Shown: one piece after another, positions 292 through 55,600 of the stretch
How positions within the stretch are numbered: the stretch's first letter is position 1
Layout of the letters: every line of letters begins with the position of its first letter
From: Lytechinus variegatus
Taxonomy: Eukaryota > Echinodermata > Echinoidea > Temnopleuroida > Toxopneustidae
NCBI RefSeq assembly: GCF_018143015.1
Contig: NC_054741.1
Coordinates: forward strand, 57,117,048-57,181,047
DNA: 64,000 bases
Direction: 5' to 3'
Program-made: the position numbers and the translations under genes
The notes under the pieces: model-generated
Database searches by the model: none
Told to the model about the DNA's origin: nothing
The model's input: the letters and a program-made list of their open reading frames with translations, nothing else

Positions 292-3200
292 CTGCATGGA
301 TTAAGAACACATAGTAATATTACAGCATAACTATTAAATCCCCCTACCAGATATAACTATCAAATACATATCTCTGACTTACTATACATGAGACCTTCCT
401 GAAATCATTCATCTCTTTTTCTAGTTCTCATGGCAATTTTAATATTCTTTTTAAATGATCTTCACTTTGGAAATTAATAGAGCAAAGCAAGCATGGGGGT
501 TGGACATACAAAGATGATTATTTCATAGGATATGAGTAACATAAAATTACAAATAGTTGTCCCAATTGAGGGTAGGGATTTGTCTGTTGGATGGTCAGCA
601 CTGAAATTAGATCTACCATTTAAGTATGAATAACTAGTTTTGCAATGGATAATAATGCTCCATTGACATGTAGCAGAACCCCCCGAATTGTCAGAAGGGG
701 CAACAGTAATTTGTTCCCAACTTTGTTGACTTAATACACTTTCTCTTTAAATTCCTATTGCATTTTTACAGCTGAGAACATACAGGACTTCCCATTACAT
801 TAATTCAATGAATATTATGTCTTATCACAACCCATTATCTTTACAATTCAGCCATACCCCCAGCCATAGACTGAATCTCAATGAACAAAAGGCAATGCCC
901 TTTGTTCCTTACCTCTGCCGTCTCCTTGGAATGTCTTTTCTCCAGGTTCTCTCGCTTCTCCTTCAGGACTTTGACCTTCTTCTCCTGCTCCTCACGCTCC
1001 TGGTCCTTCTTCAGGAGCTCGGCGATCTGTCTCTGCTGTTCTTCCGTCAGGACGCTCTCCATCCTCCTCATGTCCATCATCTGCAACCTCTGAGATTCTA
1101 GGAACTGATCGTTGGCCATCTGCCAGGTTTGCTGGAGCTGAGAGTGAGCTTGTTTCTCTTGCTCTAGAATACAGCACACTGTTGAAGAAACACATTAAAC
1201 ATGGTCACAATCTTCACATTATCTGCAGTATCCGAGATTCTAGGAACTGATCGTTGGCCATCTGCCAGGTTTGCTGGAGCTGAGAGTGAGCTTGCTTCTC
1301 TTCGTCTAGAATACAGCACACTGTTGAGGAAACACATTAAACATGGTCACAATCTTTACATTATCTGCAGTATCTGAGATTCTAGGAAGTGATTGTTGGC
1401 CATCTGCCAGGTTTGCTACAAGCTGAGAGTGAGCTTGCTTCTCTTGCTCTAGAATACAGCACACTGTTGAGAAAATCATGTGCAACATGGTCACAATCTT
1501 CATATTATCTGCACAGTATCTGAGAATCTAGGATCTCATTGTTGGCCATCTGCCAGGTTAGCTTCAAGCTGAGAGTGAGCTTGCTTCTCTTGCTCTAGAA
1601 TACAGCACACTGTTGAGAAAATCATGTGCAACATGGTCACAATCTTAATATTATCTGCACAGTATTTGAGATTCAAGGATCTGATTGTTGGCCATCTGCC
1701 AGGTTTACTACAAGCTGAGTGTGATTTTGCTTCTCTTGCTCTAGAATACAGCACACTGTTGAAAAATCACATCACACATGGTTACAATCGTCACATTACC
1801 TGCAGTAACTGAGATTCCACGAACAACATTCATAAAGTGCTTGACACAATGTTTCAAAGCTCTGCATACTATCACCCTGGCTTTAGCACGGCTACCATGA
1901 TTAAAAGCTTGAGCCATGGCTACCTTGATCAGGTGCTCAACATTCAAGGAATTCCTTACTACAAGATAATCATTTACTACATCTGGGTGGAGAGTGGCAA
2001 ATGCATAAATAAACACCTTTCCGAAGGACACAAATGCTGCGGTGAGATTTGAACCCTGAACATTGCAGTTCAAAGTCTTGAGACTTATCCATCGAGCCAC
2101 AACAACTCTACAAGAAGTTTAGGAATAAGGAATCAATTCTTACCATCTTTGAGTTCAGTTCTCATCTCATCTCCTTCATCCTGCATGACTTGTTTCTGTT
2201 TGCCAAGCACAGCGACATACAGCTCTAAATCCGTCCTTGCAGCTTTCTCTGTCTCTAACACCTTGTTCAAGTCCTTGATCTGCAGTCATCAAATATAATA
2301 ATTGAGATTACCTTCATTTATTCCTTTCATTTATCACACAATTTAAAAAATCATTGGTTAAAACCATGCAAACACATATTGAATAGTTCTATTAATGAAT
2401 TTCCAAGCTATGCCCATATATGAAGTAATTAAATGTATTCAATAGAAATATATCATGGTTGATGAGTGAAGAAAAAATAAATGAATTGAAACAATACTTC
2501 ATATCAAATATCAAGCGAGAGAATATGAGGGAAAGAAAAAATAAAGGATGATGACAGGAAGAAGAAACAAATAAAAAATAAGGACAGCTACAATGGGTTT
2601 AATTTATTAGATGAAACTACATGTACAAGTGTCTATTGAAATTGAAACTTCTTGAGTCATCAGCTTTTAGCATTTCAGATGTTACTTCATCATCATATGT
2701 ATAAGTGCAAGACTTTAAGCACTTGTATAATATAGTAAAGGAAGCAATCACACTCAAGAAATTATAATGAAGGATTTGAGATATGTTTGTTCCTCTGAAA
2801 TAGAGACCCATGGTTTCACAATGTGACTTGAAGCTAGTCTCCTGTGTAAACCTCTCACTGAAGCTATTAAAAGGGTCTGAATGCGCAGCCTACAACGACT
2901 TTTGTAATGAAGGCCCTCTCACTCAGGTCACAGGTCCTGTGACACAGACCTTAGCGATTGAGCACACAGTTGATTTGAATGCATGATTTCATCTTACGGT
3001 CAGCGTAATAAAAAGCGTAAATATCCACCCTACGATCAAGCGCTAAGCTTTATGTCACAGGCACTGCTGATCTTACCTTCTCATTGAGAATATTAATATC
3101 ATCCTTGGTAACTTCACAGTCATCGGCTGATGGAACTGCATCACTGAAGTCTTTGCTGCCAATAGCTTTCTGTATGTACAAACAACGGAGCATAGGTCAG

Positions 3201-6200
3201 TTCAATGTAAATGCTACTTGTAGTGAACATCTCAAAATCCTATGAAATGACCACCCAATTGTGTACAATTATAAAATTCTTATTCAAAGTGATTCTAGCA
3301 GAAAATGCATACTACTGAGAAATAAGCGAGGCATTCCTGCCAGGTGACAGGTCTATTTCTAAGCACATGGTCCCATATGTGTTTATCTGTGTTGGCCATC
3401 AACTTTGTAGTTAATTTTCAGCTTTATTGATTTCAGGGTTTCATAAAGTAAGGTATACTTAGATCTCTGTTGATATAGTGATGTCTTTTTTTACCACAGG
3501 TAACTGGGAATTAAGTGCAATTTTCAATTACAAGTAAACCCTTTTTTTAACCTACAAGTTTAATATGATATTAGATTTCATTCCACAAAGAGGCAGTTAT
3601 TACAATATTGTTGCATTCTAGGTTGGTTCGTTCAGCCATACTTGTTTATAATAACTAAGATTTCTCCCACATCGACCCGAGATAGTGCTATAACTCTATA
3701 GAGGAGAAATTATGAGTTGCAAACAAACATAACAAATTTGCAATGCTCATATATAATGCAACAAAATGATAATTTTATGGGTCAATAACTTCAAGCAAGT
3801 AAATTGAGATATCCTCCTAGGTAATCTTATTTCCATGATCCCGCTTGGTTTGATTAAAGGTTAGAAATCAAATATCATGTGATAGTTTTAATGTAGATTT
3901 CAAAATACATTTTCTAAACTGGTTGACGTTTCAGTCTTCGGTGAAACTAAATCCTATGTATTTCATTCGTTCACCAGTCTTCACCAGGAAAAAACGATTA
4001 ACAGGCCCAGGTAACAATGAAAAACAATATGACTTGGGCCTGATAACTAGTGTTAAACTCATACATGAAGTTTCTCAAATTATGAAATCCACACCTTTAG
4101 CCTCGCTTGCAGAAGCCTGTTGTCACTGTGTACATCTGATAATTTTTGTTTGAGGCTTTCAATCTCATTTTCCAGGGGAACTACCACGGCTCGAAGCAGC
4201 TCGGTATCTTTCTGTGCCTAGAGAAATATGAAGACACAATAATACTTTGATCGTATACATGGATGGATCTATATGCTGGCATGCAGAGTCAGATGGATAT
4301 TGTGTTTACATTAAACTACAGTAACTGGTAAGTAGTAAGTACAAACGTTCTAGTATAAATCTTCCTTGAGCTCAAATGCTCATTACTCACAATCTTTACA
4401 TACATGTATATAGATACTACTCATGTGAATAGAGGGGGGGGGGGGGTGGGAGGGGAGAGTCAGATAACAAGACAAATAATGGAATGAGAGACCTAGTTTT
4501 TCATATTCAAAGGTTTAATTCATTTATAAGGAGTCATGTCTAGGTGAGCTAATGAATGGACTGACTACCAGATTGTCAAAAAAAAAGGTATTAAGGGTTC
4601 ATCAAAGATTTAATTAAAGTATGTACCCCCTCCCTCCTTTGCTGGAAGGATGTGTTTCTCCTTAAAATTACATTTTTTGAAGTATGATAATGTTATGTTG
4701 TCATTGGGATCTATAGCACTTAAGTTGATGATGATAACAAATAATACATGAATAAGTCTGATGGTGACTATACTCTGAAGATGAAGATAAACTCTGCAAA
4801 CTGATGTAATATAAAATATAAACTCTTCTGTAGCTCTATCTCTAGACCATTCTCAAATCTTAAGTCCAATCTCTATTCTGATTTGGGTTCAGAAGTGAAC
4901 CCCTTTTGTATTGGTCTATTCAAGACTCTTTACAACCAAACAGGTGTTGGTAAACCTTGGACGCTTGGCCTAAACAATCTGTACGTCATAACTTTACTCT
5001 GCATAAGGGGAGTGGACCTTTTAGTAAGAGGCGGGAATGTAGTGAATAAGAAACCCATAACATGTGTGTGCGTCAGAAGTTTAGCTGCAAGAAGAATGAG
5101 TAATTACTTTCTTAATAAGGTTGGAGTTGGTATACTTCATGTAGAAGTATTGATTATGTATTGATATATTATCTAATATGTGAGATATGTCTTATCATCA
5201 CATAACAACAACTTGGTACATGCGTGTGCAAAAGGACGTTATGTACCAGAATATTGTAATTCTAGATAACAAGGGGTTATTACCTTTAACATACTCTGTT
5301 CCAGATTGTCTGATGCTGAAGGGGAGCTTGGGGTCTGGGGTAGAGGGAGCTTTTCTTCCCTGGTAGGAGATGGACTAGTGGTGGCGCTGGTCAAGCTGCG
5401 GAATGATTTCGTCATACTGGTCAAAAGGCCAGCACTGCCTGACGATGTCATTGTTCTACAAACATCAAGAGATGAATTTGAATAATTAGAGTATTATCAA
5501 CACATGCATAATTTGATTGGACAAGTTTTTGAATGAAATTTGAAATTTATGTGAACTATAAGGAAATAGTCAACAAAAGCTGACCAGTTAGCATTTTAAA
5601 CTCTGGACTGTTCAAGAAATAATGTGAAATCACTCATACACATTGTCATTAACAATAAAAGACAAAACACTATACTGTGACCAGTGGTATACCTGGAAAT
5701 TCTCCGCTCCATGACCGCTCCAACAACGCTCGGGCAGTGTGACCATGCCTTAAGTAAAGTAATACCTGGCATAATAAAGTGTTGCCTCTATTTATTGCAA
5801 TTTAATCACGGTCATTTTAAATGTCATAGTCTATTCCTTGATTCCCCTTTTTTTTCAAATGAAACACACAAATCTTGACTTACTTTTCTCCTCCTTGATT
5901 TTGACTGATTTCTTGTAGCTCCTGTGTGAGTTTTTCATTAAGTGCAAGGAGTTTGTCTCTTTCCATCAGATAAGTCATAGCAGTCTCCTCTGCAGTTATT
6001 GCTGCCGTGTCTACAAAGATAAAGGTGTATACAAAGCCAATCAACAGCCAATCAATTTAGTATCAATCAACTTGACTTAAATCCCGGGTTTTTCATTAAA
6101 GGTACATGCATGGAATTAATCTCTGTCCATGTATATGGTTCATGGCATTGTCCTATATAGTTATTGCTGTTGTGCATACAGGGTGTATAAAAATTTCTTT

Positions 6201-27760: not shown

Positions 27761-29258
27761 TTGTTTTATTTCCGAAATCAGATAAAAAATATACAATATA
27801 CAAGAGAGATACATACAATAACGGCGGATCACCCAATTCAGCTGTATTTGCAAAATACTGCTGTTCTTCCTTGGGGTCCTACATTTACCATTCAAAGTAA
27901 TATACCATACAAAGTAATATACACGATTTAAAAAAAGGGTGTGAGCATGTATGTGAGTGCGGAGGGCTGGTGCTGAAGGATACTGTTAAGGTATGGGTGA
28001 GGAGGTTTGCACATGGACTTCTTTCTCACATTTCTTTATTCTCACATATTTTCACACACACCCACCCTCACCCTCAGACACACCCACACACACACATAAG
28101 AAGATAATATGATTTGAACAGATTTAGATTAAGGTAATAAAAATAATTTATTTCACTTTATACACAAAAAACGCCACACATTCAATATTTCCGAGGTTTG
28201 CACATGGACTTCCTTCTCACATTTTTCTAATTATAATGTAATAAAAATATGAGAAATACGTCCATGTGCAAACCTCGGAAACATTGAGCGTTTATATTTT
28301 TATGAAACACCTTAAATCAAAATTATTTTAGAAACTGTCAGACGATATCTCTTTTACAATAACACGTTTTGACCATGATTTACTATTGATCATACCATTC
28401 AAAGCGCCATCTGATATGGATTGTTTTGATTCGTACCTATCATGCATGTGATCCAAAAACACAAGATAATTTTGTCGTGCAAAAGCCACCCGTATATGTT
28501 TTACAGTATATGTTTTTTTCTCTCAAAAAGATAGAACTAAAGGGTACTCCAGGCTGAAATCAGACAAACAATACACGGAAGATTTTATCAACATCGGACA
28601 AGGGCTGATCGACAAATGACATTTTAAAGAATGGCATTATTTTGGTTAAACCGTTTATGTCTACATGAATTTTCAATGAGCAAACTAAGGATATATCCTC
28701 ACAATGTTCTTTCGTATTTTATACATGGAAATAGGTTTATTCATATCATGTCCTCCAAGAAATAAAAGAAATTTATAAACGATTTCATACATGTTTTTAT
28801 GTGCCGGACGAGTTTATGAAATAAAAATGTTTAAAAATTTGTAATTCAATCAAGGTCCCAAAGCTTGTCAAGGATTGAAGAATCTACGTCGGGGGGGGGG
28901 GTCCTTTTCTGATGGCATCAACTTTGCACTAGATAATCTTTAAAGGCACTTTCTTGGTTCACACAAAAGCTATCTCATTTTACCATATAAATCTGTATAT
29001 CACACTCATTGTATACACCATCAAGCTCAATTCATTCAAGCATTATCATTTTGTCTAGGGATTGGACCTTGTTCAAATAAGTTTCAAATATAGACTAAAT
29101 GAAATGACCAGTTTGAAAGAGGAATCCAACTTGTTTTTCGAGGGAAAAGAAAAATCAGACAAGCTGACAGATGAAGGTTAAAAACAATATTACACAAACA
29201 ATAAGAAAGTTATGAATTTTGGAAAGTTGTAAATATTGGTTATCACTTTACACATGGG

Positions 29259-32500: not shown

Positions 32501-33988
32501 GTTTTATTTCCGAAATCAGATAAAAAAATATACAATATACAAGAGAGATACATACAATAACGGGGGATCACCCAATTCAGCTGTATTTGCAAAATACTGC
32601 TGTTCTTCCTTGGGGTCCTACATTTACCATTCAAAGTAATATACCATACAAAGTAATATACACGATTAAAAAAAGGGTGTGAGCATGTATGTGAGTGCGG
32701 AGGGCTGGTGCTGAAGGATACTGTTAAGGTATGGGTGAGGAGGTTTGCACATGGACTTCTTTCTCACATTTCTTTATTCTCACATATTTTCACACACACC
32801 CACCCTCACCCTCAGACACACCCACACACACACATAAGAAGATAATATGATTTGAACAGATTTAGATTAAGATAATAAAAATAATTTATTTCACTTTATA
32901 CACAAAAAAACGCCCACACATTCAATATTTCCGAGGTTTGCACATGGACTTCCTTCTCACATTTTTTTAAATTAAAATGTAATAAATATATGAGAAATAC
33001 GTCCATGTGCAAACCTCGGAAACATTGAGTGTTTATATTTTGATGAAACACCTTAAATCAAAATTATTTAAAAATTGTCTGACGATATCTCTTTTACAAT
33101 AAAACGTTTTTACCATGATTTAGTATTGATCATACCATTCAAAGCGCCATCTGATGTTTTGATTCGTACCTGTCATGCATGTGATCCAAAAACACAAGAT
33201 AATTTTGTCGTGCAAAAGCCACCCGTTATGATTTTACAGTATATGTTTTTTCTCTTGAAAAGATAGAACTACAGGGGTACTCCAGGCTGAAATCAGACAA
33301 ACAATACACGGAAGATTTTATCAACATCGGACAAGGGCTGATCGACAAATGACATTTTAAAGAATGGCATTATTTTGGTTAAACCGTTTATGTCTACATG
33401 AATTTTCAATGAGCAAACTAAGGATATATCCTCACAATGTTCTTTCGTATTTTATACATGGAAATAGGTTTATTCATATCATGTCCTCCAAGAAATAAAA
33501 GAAATTTATAAACGATTTCATACATGTTTTTATGTGCCGGACGAGTTTATGAAATAAAAATGTTTAAAAATTCGTCATTCAATCAAGGTCCCAAAAGCTT
33601 GTCAAGGATTGAAGAATCTACGTCGGGGGGGTCCTTTTCTGATGGCATCAACTTTGCACTAGATAATCTTTAAAGGCACTTTCTTGGTTCACACAAAAGC
33701 TATCTCATTTTACCATATAAATCTGTATATCACACTCATTGTATACACCATCAAGCTCAATTCATTCAAGCATTATCATTTTGTCTAGGGATTGGACCTT
33801 GTTCAAATAAGTTTCAAATATAGACTAAATGAAATGACCAGTTTGAAAGAGGAATCCAACTTGTTTTTCGAGGGAAAAGAAAAATCAGACAAGCTGACAG
33901 ATGAAGGTTAAAAACAATATTACACAAACAATAAGAAAGTTATGAATTTTGGAAAGTTGTAAATATTGGTTATCACTTTACACATGGG

Positions 33989-49600: not shown

Positions 49601-52600
49601 TCTACCCTTCCTGCTTGCCCATTTTTGTTCCATCTATCTTTATTTCCTATTTGTCTTTCCTGATCGTGTTTCTTTCTTTCAAAGAATGAAGGAAACATTT
49701 TTCTTCTCTTCATTTTTTTCTTTCCTCCTCCTTTTTCTTACTTTCTTTTATCTCTCCTTTATTTTGTCTTTCACACAGCCTTTCTTTCGGTATTTCAAAG
49801 AATTTCAAAGAATTCAAAGAATGACAGAAACTTTTTTCGCTTTTTATTCTTTCTTTCATCCCTTTATTCTAATTTTCTTTTATTTTTTATTTTATTTTCC
49901 CCCTTCATTTTCGCCTTCATTTTTTCTTTCTTCTCAATTCATCTTTTTTCTTTCGTCTTTTCTTTCTCTCCTTCATTCTTTCATTCACCCTCCCTTCCAA
50001 TTCTTTATAATTTTTCACAGGTGTAACACTGTGTAGCCTTCTTTGTTGATCCTGTTTGTCGATTGTCCCGTATTTCATTTTGTGAAATCTGGTCACCCTG
50101 AAATGGTCTAATGACCACTTGGTCTAATTGCCAATGATCTAATGCACATTTGGGCTAATCGTCACTTGGTCTAATTTTCATTTAGTCTAATGTCCATTTA
50201 TTCTAATAACATAGCATAATTCATTATTTGATCTAGAAATATGATACGTAGTGGATAAATATCATGCATCAGTTAATACATGTCGTCAGGATTCAGAGGG
50301 GTTGTGGAGCCGTGATATGTGCAAACGCCGGGATATGTGCAAACAACGGTATATGTGCAAAATTTCGCCGGGATTTGTGCAAACAACGGAATTTGTGCAA
50401 ACGCCACGCCGGGAAATGTGCAAATCTGTCAAAATTTATCAACGGCATCTGTGCAAACGTGACGACGGGATATGTGCAAATGAACAATTTTCACGGGAAA
50501 AGTGCAAACCTCCGGGATATGTGCAAATCACTGCATTTATCCATATAAAGGCTATTTCTAATGAAATGTTTCATAAAATTACTGTTAAAAATGAGAAACA
50601 TGCCTGCATAAGGGAGAAGCTATACAGTGACATCGGCAATGAAAAGCTATTCAGAGAGGCAGGGGGGGGGGGGACTGTTGCACCCACAAATGTAATAACG
50701 CCCACAAATGTTAGAACACTTTACCCACAAATGTAATAATTTTTGATCGCCCACAAATGTAATAATACCCACAAATGTTATAAATTTGAAGGGCTTTTTG
50801 GCAAATCCGTTCTTAACTAAAATCCTATAGTAATGCGTTCATATAGCACACAAGTGCAAAGTCTCTTTTCCTGACCCGGTTATTTAACAAATTATGATAT
50901 AAATCCAAAGTCTTTATTCCAGACCCGGTTGTTTCAAAAATAATAATATAAACCCAAAGTCTCTTTTTCCAGACCCGATTGTTTAAAAAATAATGATATA
51001 AATCCAAAGTCTTTTTTCCATACCTTGTTGTTTAAAGAATTATGATATAAATTCCAGTCTTTTTTCCAGACCCGGTTATTTAAAAAATTATAATTTAAAT
51101 CCAAACTAAGATACAATAATGATATTCCAGTGGAATAAAAATGAGAATCGAGCTTAGTTTTTTTTAATTCTTCAGCCGCTAATAGTAAATTGAGAATCAA
51201 GCATAGTCTTTGCTCCAGACCCGGTAACTAAAAGCTGAAACCCTATAGTAATGCATCTATATTGCACAAAAATGCGAAATCTTTTTTCCATACCCGCTTA
51301 ATTCAAATATCATAATATAAGTCCAAAGTCTTTTTTCCAGACCCGGTTATTTCAAAAATTATAATAATTCTAAAAAAACAAAGACCCATGATCCTATTTA
51401 TGTTAAATAACGTTGTTGTTGTTAGCTTGGGTTTTGAGGCGCGTGTCATTCAGATATGAATGTCATTCAGATATGAAAATATAGCGTAGTCTTTTTGTCA
51501 GACCCAGTTATAAAAATCATTAAAAACACAACAATAACAACAAAAGAACGACCCTGCAAACCATAAAAAATAATTTCTTGTATATTCCTTCTTTTTTCTA
51601 TGAAAAAACACAAATAACAGAACTTTTAATACATATGAAAAAACTGAGAAATAAGATATCAGTAACCAATAGGGGGATTACTTCCCAAAAACGATAAGGT
51701 TGTTGATCAACGATCTATGATATAGTATATAAAAGAAAAACATTTGATTAAGAGGGGATAACCATTCCATTCCATGTTTTCATTTGGCAATAAGTCATGA
51801 TTGACTATTTTTGCCACCCACTGTATGAGAAGTAGGGTAACAATTTTAATTAGTGTTATTTTTATTACTTCTTTTTTATCATTATTATTTCTTATATATT
51901 CATTCCTTTTTATTCTATGAAAAAAATAAAACAAAACCTTAAAATATAAAACAAAAAGCTGAGGAATAAGATATCAGCACACAATATGAGGATTACTTCC
52001 CAAAAACGATAAGGTTGTTGATCGACGATCTATGAGATATTATATAAAAGAAAATGATTCTAACAATAGGGGATAACGTTTTAACAAGTTCTTCGGTACT
52101 TTAAATTTTCAGTGGGCAAGCACCATTTGTAATATATTCAGCATTTTTTTTATTAGTTACAATTCCAATAATCTCAGAGGCCTAAGATATATTTTCTGGG
52201 GTTATATTGACCCGTAAAGTAAAGAGAGAGACAGAGAGAGAGGATTTATGTGATCAAGAAGTGATAAGATAGGGAAAAAATGATTTTAAATGACTGAAAG
52301 AGAGACAGGCAAAGAAAGAGGAGCCCCCTCCCACACCCGTACCAGAGTTACGGGGTTAGGCTGTCCCGTCGATGGATTCAGGTCCATCAACATCTTGAGG
52401 TTTGATCTTTCCAGGGGACAAACGTCTTTGCTCTATACCATGTTATTTCAAAATAGGAAATTATTAGAAAGGATAAAAACAGACAAACAACATTAACAAA
52501 GACGCCACAATATCATTAATGTAGAATAACGTTGTTATTTTGGGTTTTTAAGGCGCGTACCATTCAGATCTGAATATTTACGCCTTTTGTTAATTTGTCG

Positions 52601-55600
52601 TTTTTGTGGTATGCGTTATCACAGGTTTTTTATAGTTTGGGAGAGGCTGGTGTCTAAATTTTCCTGATTACTCTTTTGCTTAATTTGTATTTTTAAGAGA
52701 ACTGGGTGTGGGGTAGAGACAACTCTCTAAACCCAAGCATTTTAACTGGGTTTAATTTAAAAAAATTGTCTTAGCTTTGTTTTTTTTTCAATATTTTTTA
52801 TCTTATAAATAACTGGGTCTAGACGAAGTCTAAGCATAATATCCATGTTATTCAACAGGAATAAGAATATGACAAAGTCTAATGTTTTTAAGAATGTTTA
52901 AATTAATTTCTTAATGAGTGGGTCTGTAAAAGAGACAACGCTCTAAACATGTGCTTTTCTACTTGGTCTTAATTTGGAAGATTGTTTGTTCTTAGATTCG
53001 CTGTTGGGGGTTGGGTTTTATTGGTTTTTTTTATTCATGAAATAATTGTGTCTGGAGAAAAGTCTACAATCGATCTCCATGTTATTCCACAGTAGTTAGA
53101 TTATTGGGTATTCGTTTTAGAATATGGGTAAAAACTATTTAAAAAAATAATAATAACAAAGTCTGGAGAAAGGACGTTTGCTATATCCATGCATAATTAC
53201 AATGTTTTGTAGGGGTCTTAGTATTATTATATATAAAAAAAAACTGGGTGTGGGGTAAAGACATATTTTTTTAGTGGGTGTAACTTTTGAAAATTGGTTT
53301 TAGATTTGATTTTCTTTTTTAATTCATTTTTTATATGACCTGGTCTGGAGGAAAGAGAACGTTTTAAAACTTGTGTTATTCCAAAAGAATGTGATAGGGT
53401 CTTATGTTAGAAGATTCTTTTTCGTAATTTTTGTATATAATGATTAGGTCTGGAATAAAGACAACGTTCTAAACTTCTTTTTAAAAACAGGTTCTTAGGT
53501 TCAAGGATTGCTTGGTCTTAGATTTGGAGTTATTTCTAATTTTACTATTAGCGTTATTTTGAAAAACAAATGACTGAGTCTGGCTGAAAGACTACGCTAT
53601 ATGTCCATGTTATCCAGCATTAATAAGATTATGGAGTCTTTATACAGTTTTTGTTGTTGTTGTTTTGTTATTTACAATTTTTGATTAACAGGGTTTGGAG
53701 AAAAGGCTAAGCTCGATTTTGTTTTTTTCCCCACTGGAATATCATTATGGTATCTAAGTTTTGACTTATATTATAATTTTTGAAATAACCGGGTCTTGAA
53801 AAAAACTTTCGACTTATATTATAATTTCTTGAAACTACTGGGTCTGGAAACGAGACTTTGGACTTTTGTGCTATATGAAGGCATTACTAGAGGGTTTCAG
53901 TTTCTAGTTTTAAATAACCGGGTCTGGAGAAAAGACTATGCTTGATTCTCAATTTACTCATGGCGAATATATTCACAATACATTCCGTATAATTCAAAAC
54001 AACAACAAAGACATTGATTCCACCAGTTTTAATTAACTGGGTCTGGAGAGAAGACTAAGCTTGATTCTTATGTTTCTTCCACTGGAACATCATTATCGTA
54101 TCTTAGTTTGGACTTATATCATAATATGTGAAATAACAGGGTCTGGAAAAAAAAGACTTTGGACTTATATTATAATTTTTTAAACAATCGGGTTAGGAAT
54201 AAAGACTTTGGATTTACCTTATAATTTTTTAAACAACCTGGTTTGGAGGAAAGATATTGGACTATATTATAATATTTGAAACAACCGAGTCTGGAATAAA
54301 GACTTTGGATTTATATTATAATCTTCTAAACAACCGGGTCTGGAGAAAAGACTTTGGACTTATATTATTATTTTTTCAACAATCGGGTCTCAAATAAAGA
54401 CTTTGGGCTTATATTATTATTTTTTAAACAATCGGGTCTGGAAAAAAGACTTTGGACTTATATTAGAATTTTTGAAACAACCGGGTCTGGAAAAAAGACT
54501 TTGGACATATATTATAATTTTTGAAACAACCGGGTCTGGAAAAAAGACTTTGGACATATATTATAATTTTTGAAACATCCGGGTCTGGAAAAAAGACTTT
54601 GGACATATATTATTATTTTTGAAACAACCGGGTCTGGAATAAAGACTTTGGATTTATATTATAATTTGTTAAATAACCGGGTCAGGAAAAGAGACTTTGC
54701 ACTTGTGTGCTATATGAACGCATTACTATAGGATTTTAGTTAAGAACGGATTTGCCAAAAAGCCCTTCAAATTTATAACATTTGTGGGTAAAGTCATTAT
54801 TACATTTGTGGGCTATCAAAAATTATTACATTTGTGGGTAAAGTGTTATTACATTTGTGGGCGTTATTACATTTGTGGGTGCAACAGTTCCCCCCCCCTG
54901 CCTCTCTGAATAGCTTTTCATTGCCGATGTCACTGTATAGCTTCTCCCTTATGCAGGCATGTTTCTCATTTTTAACAGTAATTTTATGAAACATTTCATT
55001 AGAAATAGCCTTTATATGGATAAATGCAGTGATTTGCACATATCCCGGAGGTTTGCACTTTTCCCGTGAAAATTGTTCATTTGCACATATCCCGTCGTCA
55101 CGTTTGCACAGATGCCGTTGATAAATTTTGACAGATTTGCACATTTCCCGGCGTGGCGTTTGCACAAATTCCGTTGTTTGCACAAATCCCGGCGAAATTT
55201 TGCACATATACCGTTGTTTGCACATATCCCGGCGTTTGCACATATCACGGCTCCACAGGGGTAGAGCTGGGGTGGGGCGAAAAAAAACCCCTCACCGTGA
55301 AGGACTATCGATGATGAGATAGTTGCTCATCAAATGAATCATTCTAATTAAATACAATTCTTTTAATTAGGCCTTTATATCGATAATAGATGATGATGAA
55401 AACTATATCATACTCATCATTACATCATTGCATGCACATTTACAGAACAATAAGTTGGGGACCTCGTAGCTTATAATGGCCGAATGGCAGGGTTTCATCA
55501 GAATAATATTATGAAGAAAGGAACGAAACTATAATATTGTGTGGATACGTATCAAGTAAACATGTTTATGCCTCTGTTTAAATCATCGTTATGCACCATA

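Follow-up and report, generated by a model that had tools for sequence, protein, structure and literature searches.

We analyzed a 64,000-nucleotide stretch of the genome of the sea urchin Lytechinus variegatus (NCBI RefSeq assembly GCF_018143015.1, contig NC_054741.1, positions 57,117,048 to 57,181,047 of the forward strand; here called the window), in which an initial annotation had marked an intact-looking foldback element at positions 50303-55257. It is near certain that this element is a transposon with 5-bp target-site duplications. Judging from sequence, it is probably a non-autonomous foldback mobilized in trans by a Ginger-like integrase. We also lean slightly toward the broader view that a third Ginger-type lineage powers foldbacks, a lineage with a D(34)E spacing, no H2C2 zinc finger, a fused OTU domain, a 5-bp stagger, and a GC-rich palindromic target.

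The two arms of the window element (50303-50670 and 54890-55257) are complementary at 368 of 368 nt (100%) without an indel, a little longer than the ~358 bp first described, and GGGGT adjoins both element ends, as the annotation had stated. Mirror symmetry continues inward in two further pairs, 50664-50766 with 54796-54898 (96%) and 50766-50992 with 54564-54790 (93%). The terminal 12-mer (at most one mismatch) occurs within the window only at the two element ends, against a chance expectation of 0.09. The levels of the nested plan proposed earlier (outer array, unique block, second array, and inner ~49-bp array) were located, the last two on both sides, and the long composite inverted arms, tandem arrays, and target duplications place the element in the structural class of foldbacks. 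Its parts are listed below, with limits set by eye or by Tandem Repeats Finder (TRF) where indicated.

50298-50302, no strand: left target-site duplication GGGGT, from flanking sequence and family end pairs
50303-50670, plus strand: left arm (terminal inverted repeat, TIR), beginning TGTGGAGCC
50309-50528, plus strand: outer array of 10 GTGCAAA units, whose starts span arm positions 17 to 219; putative transposase-binding array (limits by eye; repeats also reported by TRF)
50529-50670, plus strand: non-repeated block of the left arm, with a G run at its end (limits by eye)
50677-50790, plus strand: second array, left side, with units like CCCACAAATGTAATAA, partly mirrored on the right (limits by eye)
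50857-51105, plus strand: inner array, left side, 5.1 copies of a 49-bp unit (TRF)
51106-54106, no strand: middle, whose unique part (element positions 901-3300) is common to 19 fetched window-type copies
54107-54704, minus strand: inner array, right side, 12.2 copies of the 49-bp unit (TRF)
54773-54879, minus strand: second array, right side (TRF)
54890-55257, minus strand: right arm, complementary to the left arm, finishing in GGCTCCACA
55258-55262, no strand: right target-site duplication GGGGT, from flanking sequence and family end pairs

We searched the genome (869.6 Mb in 33 contigs) for relatives and found at least 41 matches to the window element. Its 24-bp end, allowing three mismatches, occurs 170 times (83 forward, 87 reverse), and the reversed control sequence does not occur at all. 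From two pattern searches (64 + 46), we collected 110 exact matches to the 17-bp end, each with 10 bp of flanking sequence, and paired adjacent plus and minus ends up to 20 kb apart, which gave 42 pairs and left 26 ends unpaired. The distance between paired ends ranges from 3.4 to 17 kb. The 5-bp flanks are identical in 34 of the 42 pairs, and in none does the identity extend over 6 bp; random pairing yielded a mean of 1.3 exact 5-bp agreements and at most 6. The other pairs have one mismatch over the 5 bp (three pairs) or two, three, and four mismatches (one pair each), and the two pairs mismatching at all five bases are tandem copies on contig C5. The common end point, the consistent flank duplication, and the presence of the structure beyond this locus that the initial annotation had anticipated thus all hold.

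Empty sites gave direct evidence for one copy. We searched with nine joined flank pairs, and the 40 matches listed (40 of 2014 candidates scored) comprise 39 that cross the junction of copy L009 (C17:5881053), which is inserted within a repeat, and one that crosses that of L015. Four aligned empty (paralogous) sites of L009 each hold a single GGGGT with no gap; because they contain the target once, precise insertion with a 5-bp duplication is demonstrated for L009. Among these matches, there was no empty version of the window's own site, and for the window copy, the support for precise insertion and duplication is its two GGGGT together with the family evidence. The duplicated 5 bp are 75% GC over 33 distinct sites vs. 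36% in the flanks of 11 copies, with G at position −4 in 21 of the 33 sites and C at +4 in 23. The target is a GC-rich weak palindrome. Such target symmetry is usual for integrases and arises from two equivalent active sites.

Several individual arrangements deserve mention in their own right. On C5 (C5:31609479-31619226), two neighboring copies in the same orientation (L023 and L024) are separated by a 5-bp GGGTG and bounded on both outer sides by CACCC, its reverse complement, and their middles differ by 0.5%; this suggests a dimer in which the spacer was flipped at the palindromic junction. Copies L014 and L019 lie in opposite orientation at one and the same point of a repeat; their flanks are 89% alike and their three best element segments differ by 0-3.6%, which would mean either two separate insertions at a single site or copying by conversion. 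Two pairs of lone ends, C3:338004/745146 (0.4 Mb apart) and C4:6219041/7264005 (1.0 Mb apart), have opposite orientations and the same 10-bp flanks, as if one end had been inversely duplicated, which could reflect assembly or recombination. At C15:1469030-1482356, a single left end precedes three right ends spaced ~2.24 kb apart, and the first two of these share a flank; this is a tandem duplication of the right part.

The link to an integrase comes from a 7926-bp element at C1:4283897-4291822 that has the same two ends as the window element around an integrase open reading frame (ORF). Its TIRs measure 262 bp and agree at 94.7%, with a perfect match limited to 29 bp; compared with the window arm, its two arms are 89.7% (over 369 nt) and 94.6% (over 258 nt) identical. 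The ORF matches Pfam rve (E = 4.4e-14), and its best solved relative is the integrase of prototype foamy virus (PFV; 2.3e-12). A protein search with this integrase, which scored the best 119 of 1025 candidates, found two close copies at C14:2193925 and C14:3574725 (90-91% identity over the first 198-199 residues). Their ORFs of 671 and 684 residues contain both rve (2e-12) and OTU domains (PF02338, 3.1e-9 and 5.6e-10) and keep the catalytic residues. The right arms of the C14 copies are colinear with the C1 element and resemble the window arm at 87% (L048) and 85% (the other copy, in which the last 8 bases of the arm are unaligned). A fourth relative, C1:42088928-42089862, is likewise colinear, with a 3′ part 81% alike and a right arm at 83%; no integrase match for it was among the matches listed. 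In three integrase copies, the pieces aligned with the C1 element show roughly 70-91% similarity, and given this range together with their colinearity, the association between integrase and right arm is old. Comparison of the C1 integrase with those on C14 gives a dN/dS ratio (nonsynonymous to synonymous substitution) of 0.25-0.27, which points to past constraint on the protein. The earlier suggestion that the element is mobilized by a different transposase is, thus, supported in outline by an integrase gene that shares its ends; in the search for an autonomous relative, the same-ended integrase element was found, but an intact autonomous copy was not.

We then compared the integrases of this lineage with one another. 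The distance from the second Asp to the place of the Glu is 34 residues in all seven (L035, L041-L044, L048, and L049) vs. 35 in two Gypsy-type integrases of the same genome. Glu itself is present at that place in L048, L049, and L041 and absent from the C1 copy, L042, L043, and L044. Pfam gave no match to a zinc-binding domain up to E = 1, and by eye there was no HHCC pattern corresponding to an H2C2 finger; no GPY/F motif was seen by eye, the region being deleted in L048 and L049. L042 (C15:285860) and L043 (C6:42710778) are integrase relatives at 45% over ~130 residues, 98% alike to each other over 3.4 kb, with OTU matches ~26 and 6 kb away, respectively, the one on C6 containing stops. A distant integrase-OTU gene on the minus strand of C3 (L041/L050, 9646996-9648024; 37%) has an uninterrupted 647-residue ORF with an OTU match of 2.8e-8 and no flanking TIRs within ~4.4 kb, and from its sequence could be a domesticated host gene. 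The ORFs of L048 (at 4185), L049 (at 4197), and L041 all start with a hydrophobic stretch, conserved among them, that by eye resembles a signal peptide, an odd feature for an integrase.

The window element itself has limited coding capacity. Its longest frame, 151 residues, is located in an arm, and no larger frame occurs in the whole element. The same middle, in either orientation and with 2.1% divergence between copies, is present in 19 fetched copies, none of which has a transposase frame of its own; frames longer than 152 residues occur only in L028 (526) and L020 (270), and both look like ORFs of long interspersed nuclear elements (LINEs) by eye. Because their middles lack a transposase frame, the window-type copies are non-autonomous. 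Other middles are found, wholly or partly, in the same-ended L029, L031, L033, and L034, the last three seen in part. L029, a 10.5-kb element on C1 with an exact duplication, has the family arms, a different middle, and no frame above 113 residues; L031 matches only ~235 bp of L029 and nothing in the window, the C1 integrase element, or L048. L032 contains a frame reading like a LINE. No match to the 49-bp or second-array units of the window element was found in the C1 integrase element (E up to 1).

To examine how the arms stay alike, we used 20 copies, namely the window element and 19 of 20 fetched stretches (L018, lacking a second end, was excluded). Divergence between the two arms of one copy is 0.65%; across copies, it is 0.54% for left-left, 0.72% for left-right, and 0.82% for right-right comparisons. 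Left and right arms are interchangeable, and none of the 36 variable sites tells the two sides apart. That arm divergence (0.5-0.8%) is lower than middle divergence may be partly selection, as copies were picked by arm similarity. Three variants occur in both arms of a single copy (positions 170 and 252 in L026; position 329 in L025), which suggests occasional arm-to-arm transfer. The initial annotation had read near-identical arms as recent insertion or ongoing conversion; partly in line with this, transfer is suggested as an occasional event, and the arms were probably already alike before the family spread.

We propose the following course of events. A Ginger-like integrase would recognize the terminus and probably also the 10-unit outer array, attach the CA ends to the two target strands with a 5-bp stagger, and leave joints whose repair would create the 5-bp duplication. 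The longer mirrored arms and the inner arrays may be later expansions of TIRs of ~260 bp, with arm likeness perhaps kept by descent from few source copies and occasional arm-to-arm transfer.

A number of observations weigh against this account. The C1 integrase copy is broken, with its N-terminal part in another frame and most of its OTU domain lost, and it has Lys where other copies have the catalytic Glu. The flanks of the C1 element agree at four of five bases, as do ~9% of random duplication pairs, and it is the only integrase-linked copy in which both ends are present. The two C14 copies carry different in-frame deletions, and on their left side, the arm pieces are oriented like a right arm. 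Core-vs.-spacer mismatch in the outer array is 12.0, 14.5, and 17.6% (one arm being misaligned after a deletion), and the spacers are not clearly less conserved than the GTGCAAA cores, so that the binding role of the array is putative. Arms linked to integrases are ~5-17% diverged from the window arms, and the actual source may, therefore, be another, unseen element. As no intact autonomous copy was found among the same-ended elements and integrase copies, we infer the mobilization rather than observe it.

Transib/RAG transposases make 5-bp GC-rich duplications and act on termini with a CAC-type heptamer. The duplication length and composition would, therefore, suit a transposase of this kind moving the family, with the integrase genes captured or inserted, and the broken or deleted state of the integrase copies found would suit it as well. 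We consider this unlikely. The ends fixed by the duplications are TGT...ACA, and the sequence inside them begins TGTGGAG rather than with a CAC heptamer; moreover, the integrase gene and right arm are colinear in three copies, so that their association is old. Inspection by eye of the fetched copies and pieces, which covered several long elements in part and included no search for RAG1 or Transib genes, revealed LINE-ORF-like frames but no further frame for a transposase. Recombination could also multiply a foldback: ectopic exchange and conversion with no transposase now acting would agree with the lack of an intact autonomous copy, with the shared repeat position of L014 and L019 (flanks differing by 11%, well above the element segments), and with the flipped spacer of the C5 tandem pair. 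The 33 distinct duplicated sites and their target preference point instead to an integrase-type reaction, and we regard recombination as the sole process as very improbable.

Sea urchin TU elements combine long composite inverted arms, an outer array of the 15-bp type, and an 8-bp target duplication. The window element shares the arms and the array, a likeness of plan, and it may or may not be the TU relative or new subfamily that the initial annotation suggested. It is doubtful that it belongs to the TU family proper, since the duplication is 5 bp in 34 of 42 pairs and no pair agrees at 8 bp. Mirrored arms alone would fit a local inverted duplication, the 5-bp repeat being coincidental, and to this we give almost no credence: dispersed copies have the same ends and their own duplications, one has empty sites, and the end pairs refute it. 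Mobilization by a Ginger-like integrase accordingly remains the reading that we prefer.

Among known systems, Ginger1 is the closest point of reference, and its description gives TGTNR ends, TIRs of 40-270 bp, a 4-bp CCGG/CCGT duplication, an H2C2 finger, and OTU or Ulp1 domains (PMC2836005). The family resembles it in its TGTNR termini (TGTGG ends adjoin the duplications), in TIR length (262 bp in the C1 integrase element), in a retroviral/Gypsy-type integrase core (rve, DDE), in a C-terminal OTU domain (the C14 copies and the distant C3 gene), and in the existence of non-autonomous copies. In contrast to Ginger1, its duplications are 5 bp, varied, and GC-rich, its integrases have no H2C2 match, and it has foldback arms. 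Ginger1 is further characterized by GPY/F and YPYY motifs; by eye, a GPY/F motif was not clear in the present integrases, two of which have the region deleted. Ginger2/Tdd elements make 4- or 5-bp duplications according to two reports (PMC2836005, PMC10045372); they share the TGTNR ends, and TDD-4 and TDD-5 share the 5-bp duplications, whereas the AT-rich RTATAY target and H2C2 finger of Ginger2 differ from the GC-rich palindrome and missing H2C2 match here. Because duplication, target, and zinc finger differ from Ginger1, and target and zinc finger from Ginger2/Tdd, the family integrase is called Ginger-like and filed in neither group. As for foldbacks, PMC4079207, which cites Lieberman 1983 for the TU elements, indicates that most seem to be Mutator, with exceptions, that Galileo belongs to the P superfamily, and that Galileo arrays contain extra transposase sites. 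Long TIRs with internal arrays are common to Galileo, FB, other foldbacks, and this family; its probable use of an integrase distinguishes it from Galileo and from Mutator foldbacks. In a small survey of the open literature, with Repbase not covered, we found no paper linking foldbacks to Ginger.

Elsewhere in the window, a 146-bp tandem repeat occupies positions 1075-1824 (5.2 copies, 89%), and a 17-bp tandem unit, TACCATACAAAGTAATA, occurs at two sites, 27886-27922 and 32625-32661, that are possibly parts of a repeat.

For some foldbacks, Tetris among them, no transposase is known. The link to a retroviral-type integrase supplies a concrete enzyme to test, together with a 5-bp integration signature and a target logo, and it bears on the relation between the integrases of long terminal repeat (LTR) retroelements and DNA transposons. 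The old question of TU also becomes directly testable through end alignment. If true, the third Ginger-type lineage would place an integrase-driven class next to the foldbacks driven by Mutator and P, and it could reveal which transposase, long sought, belongs to TU-like elements.

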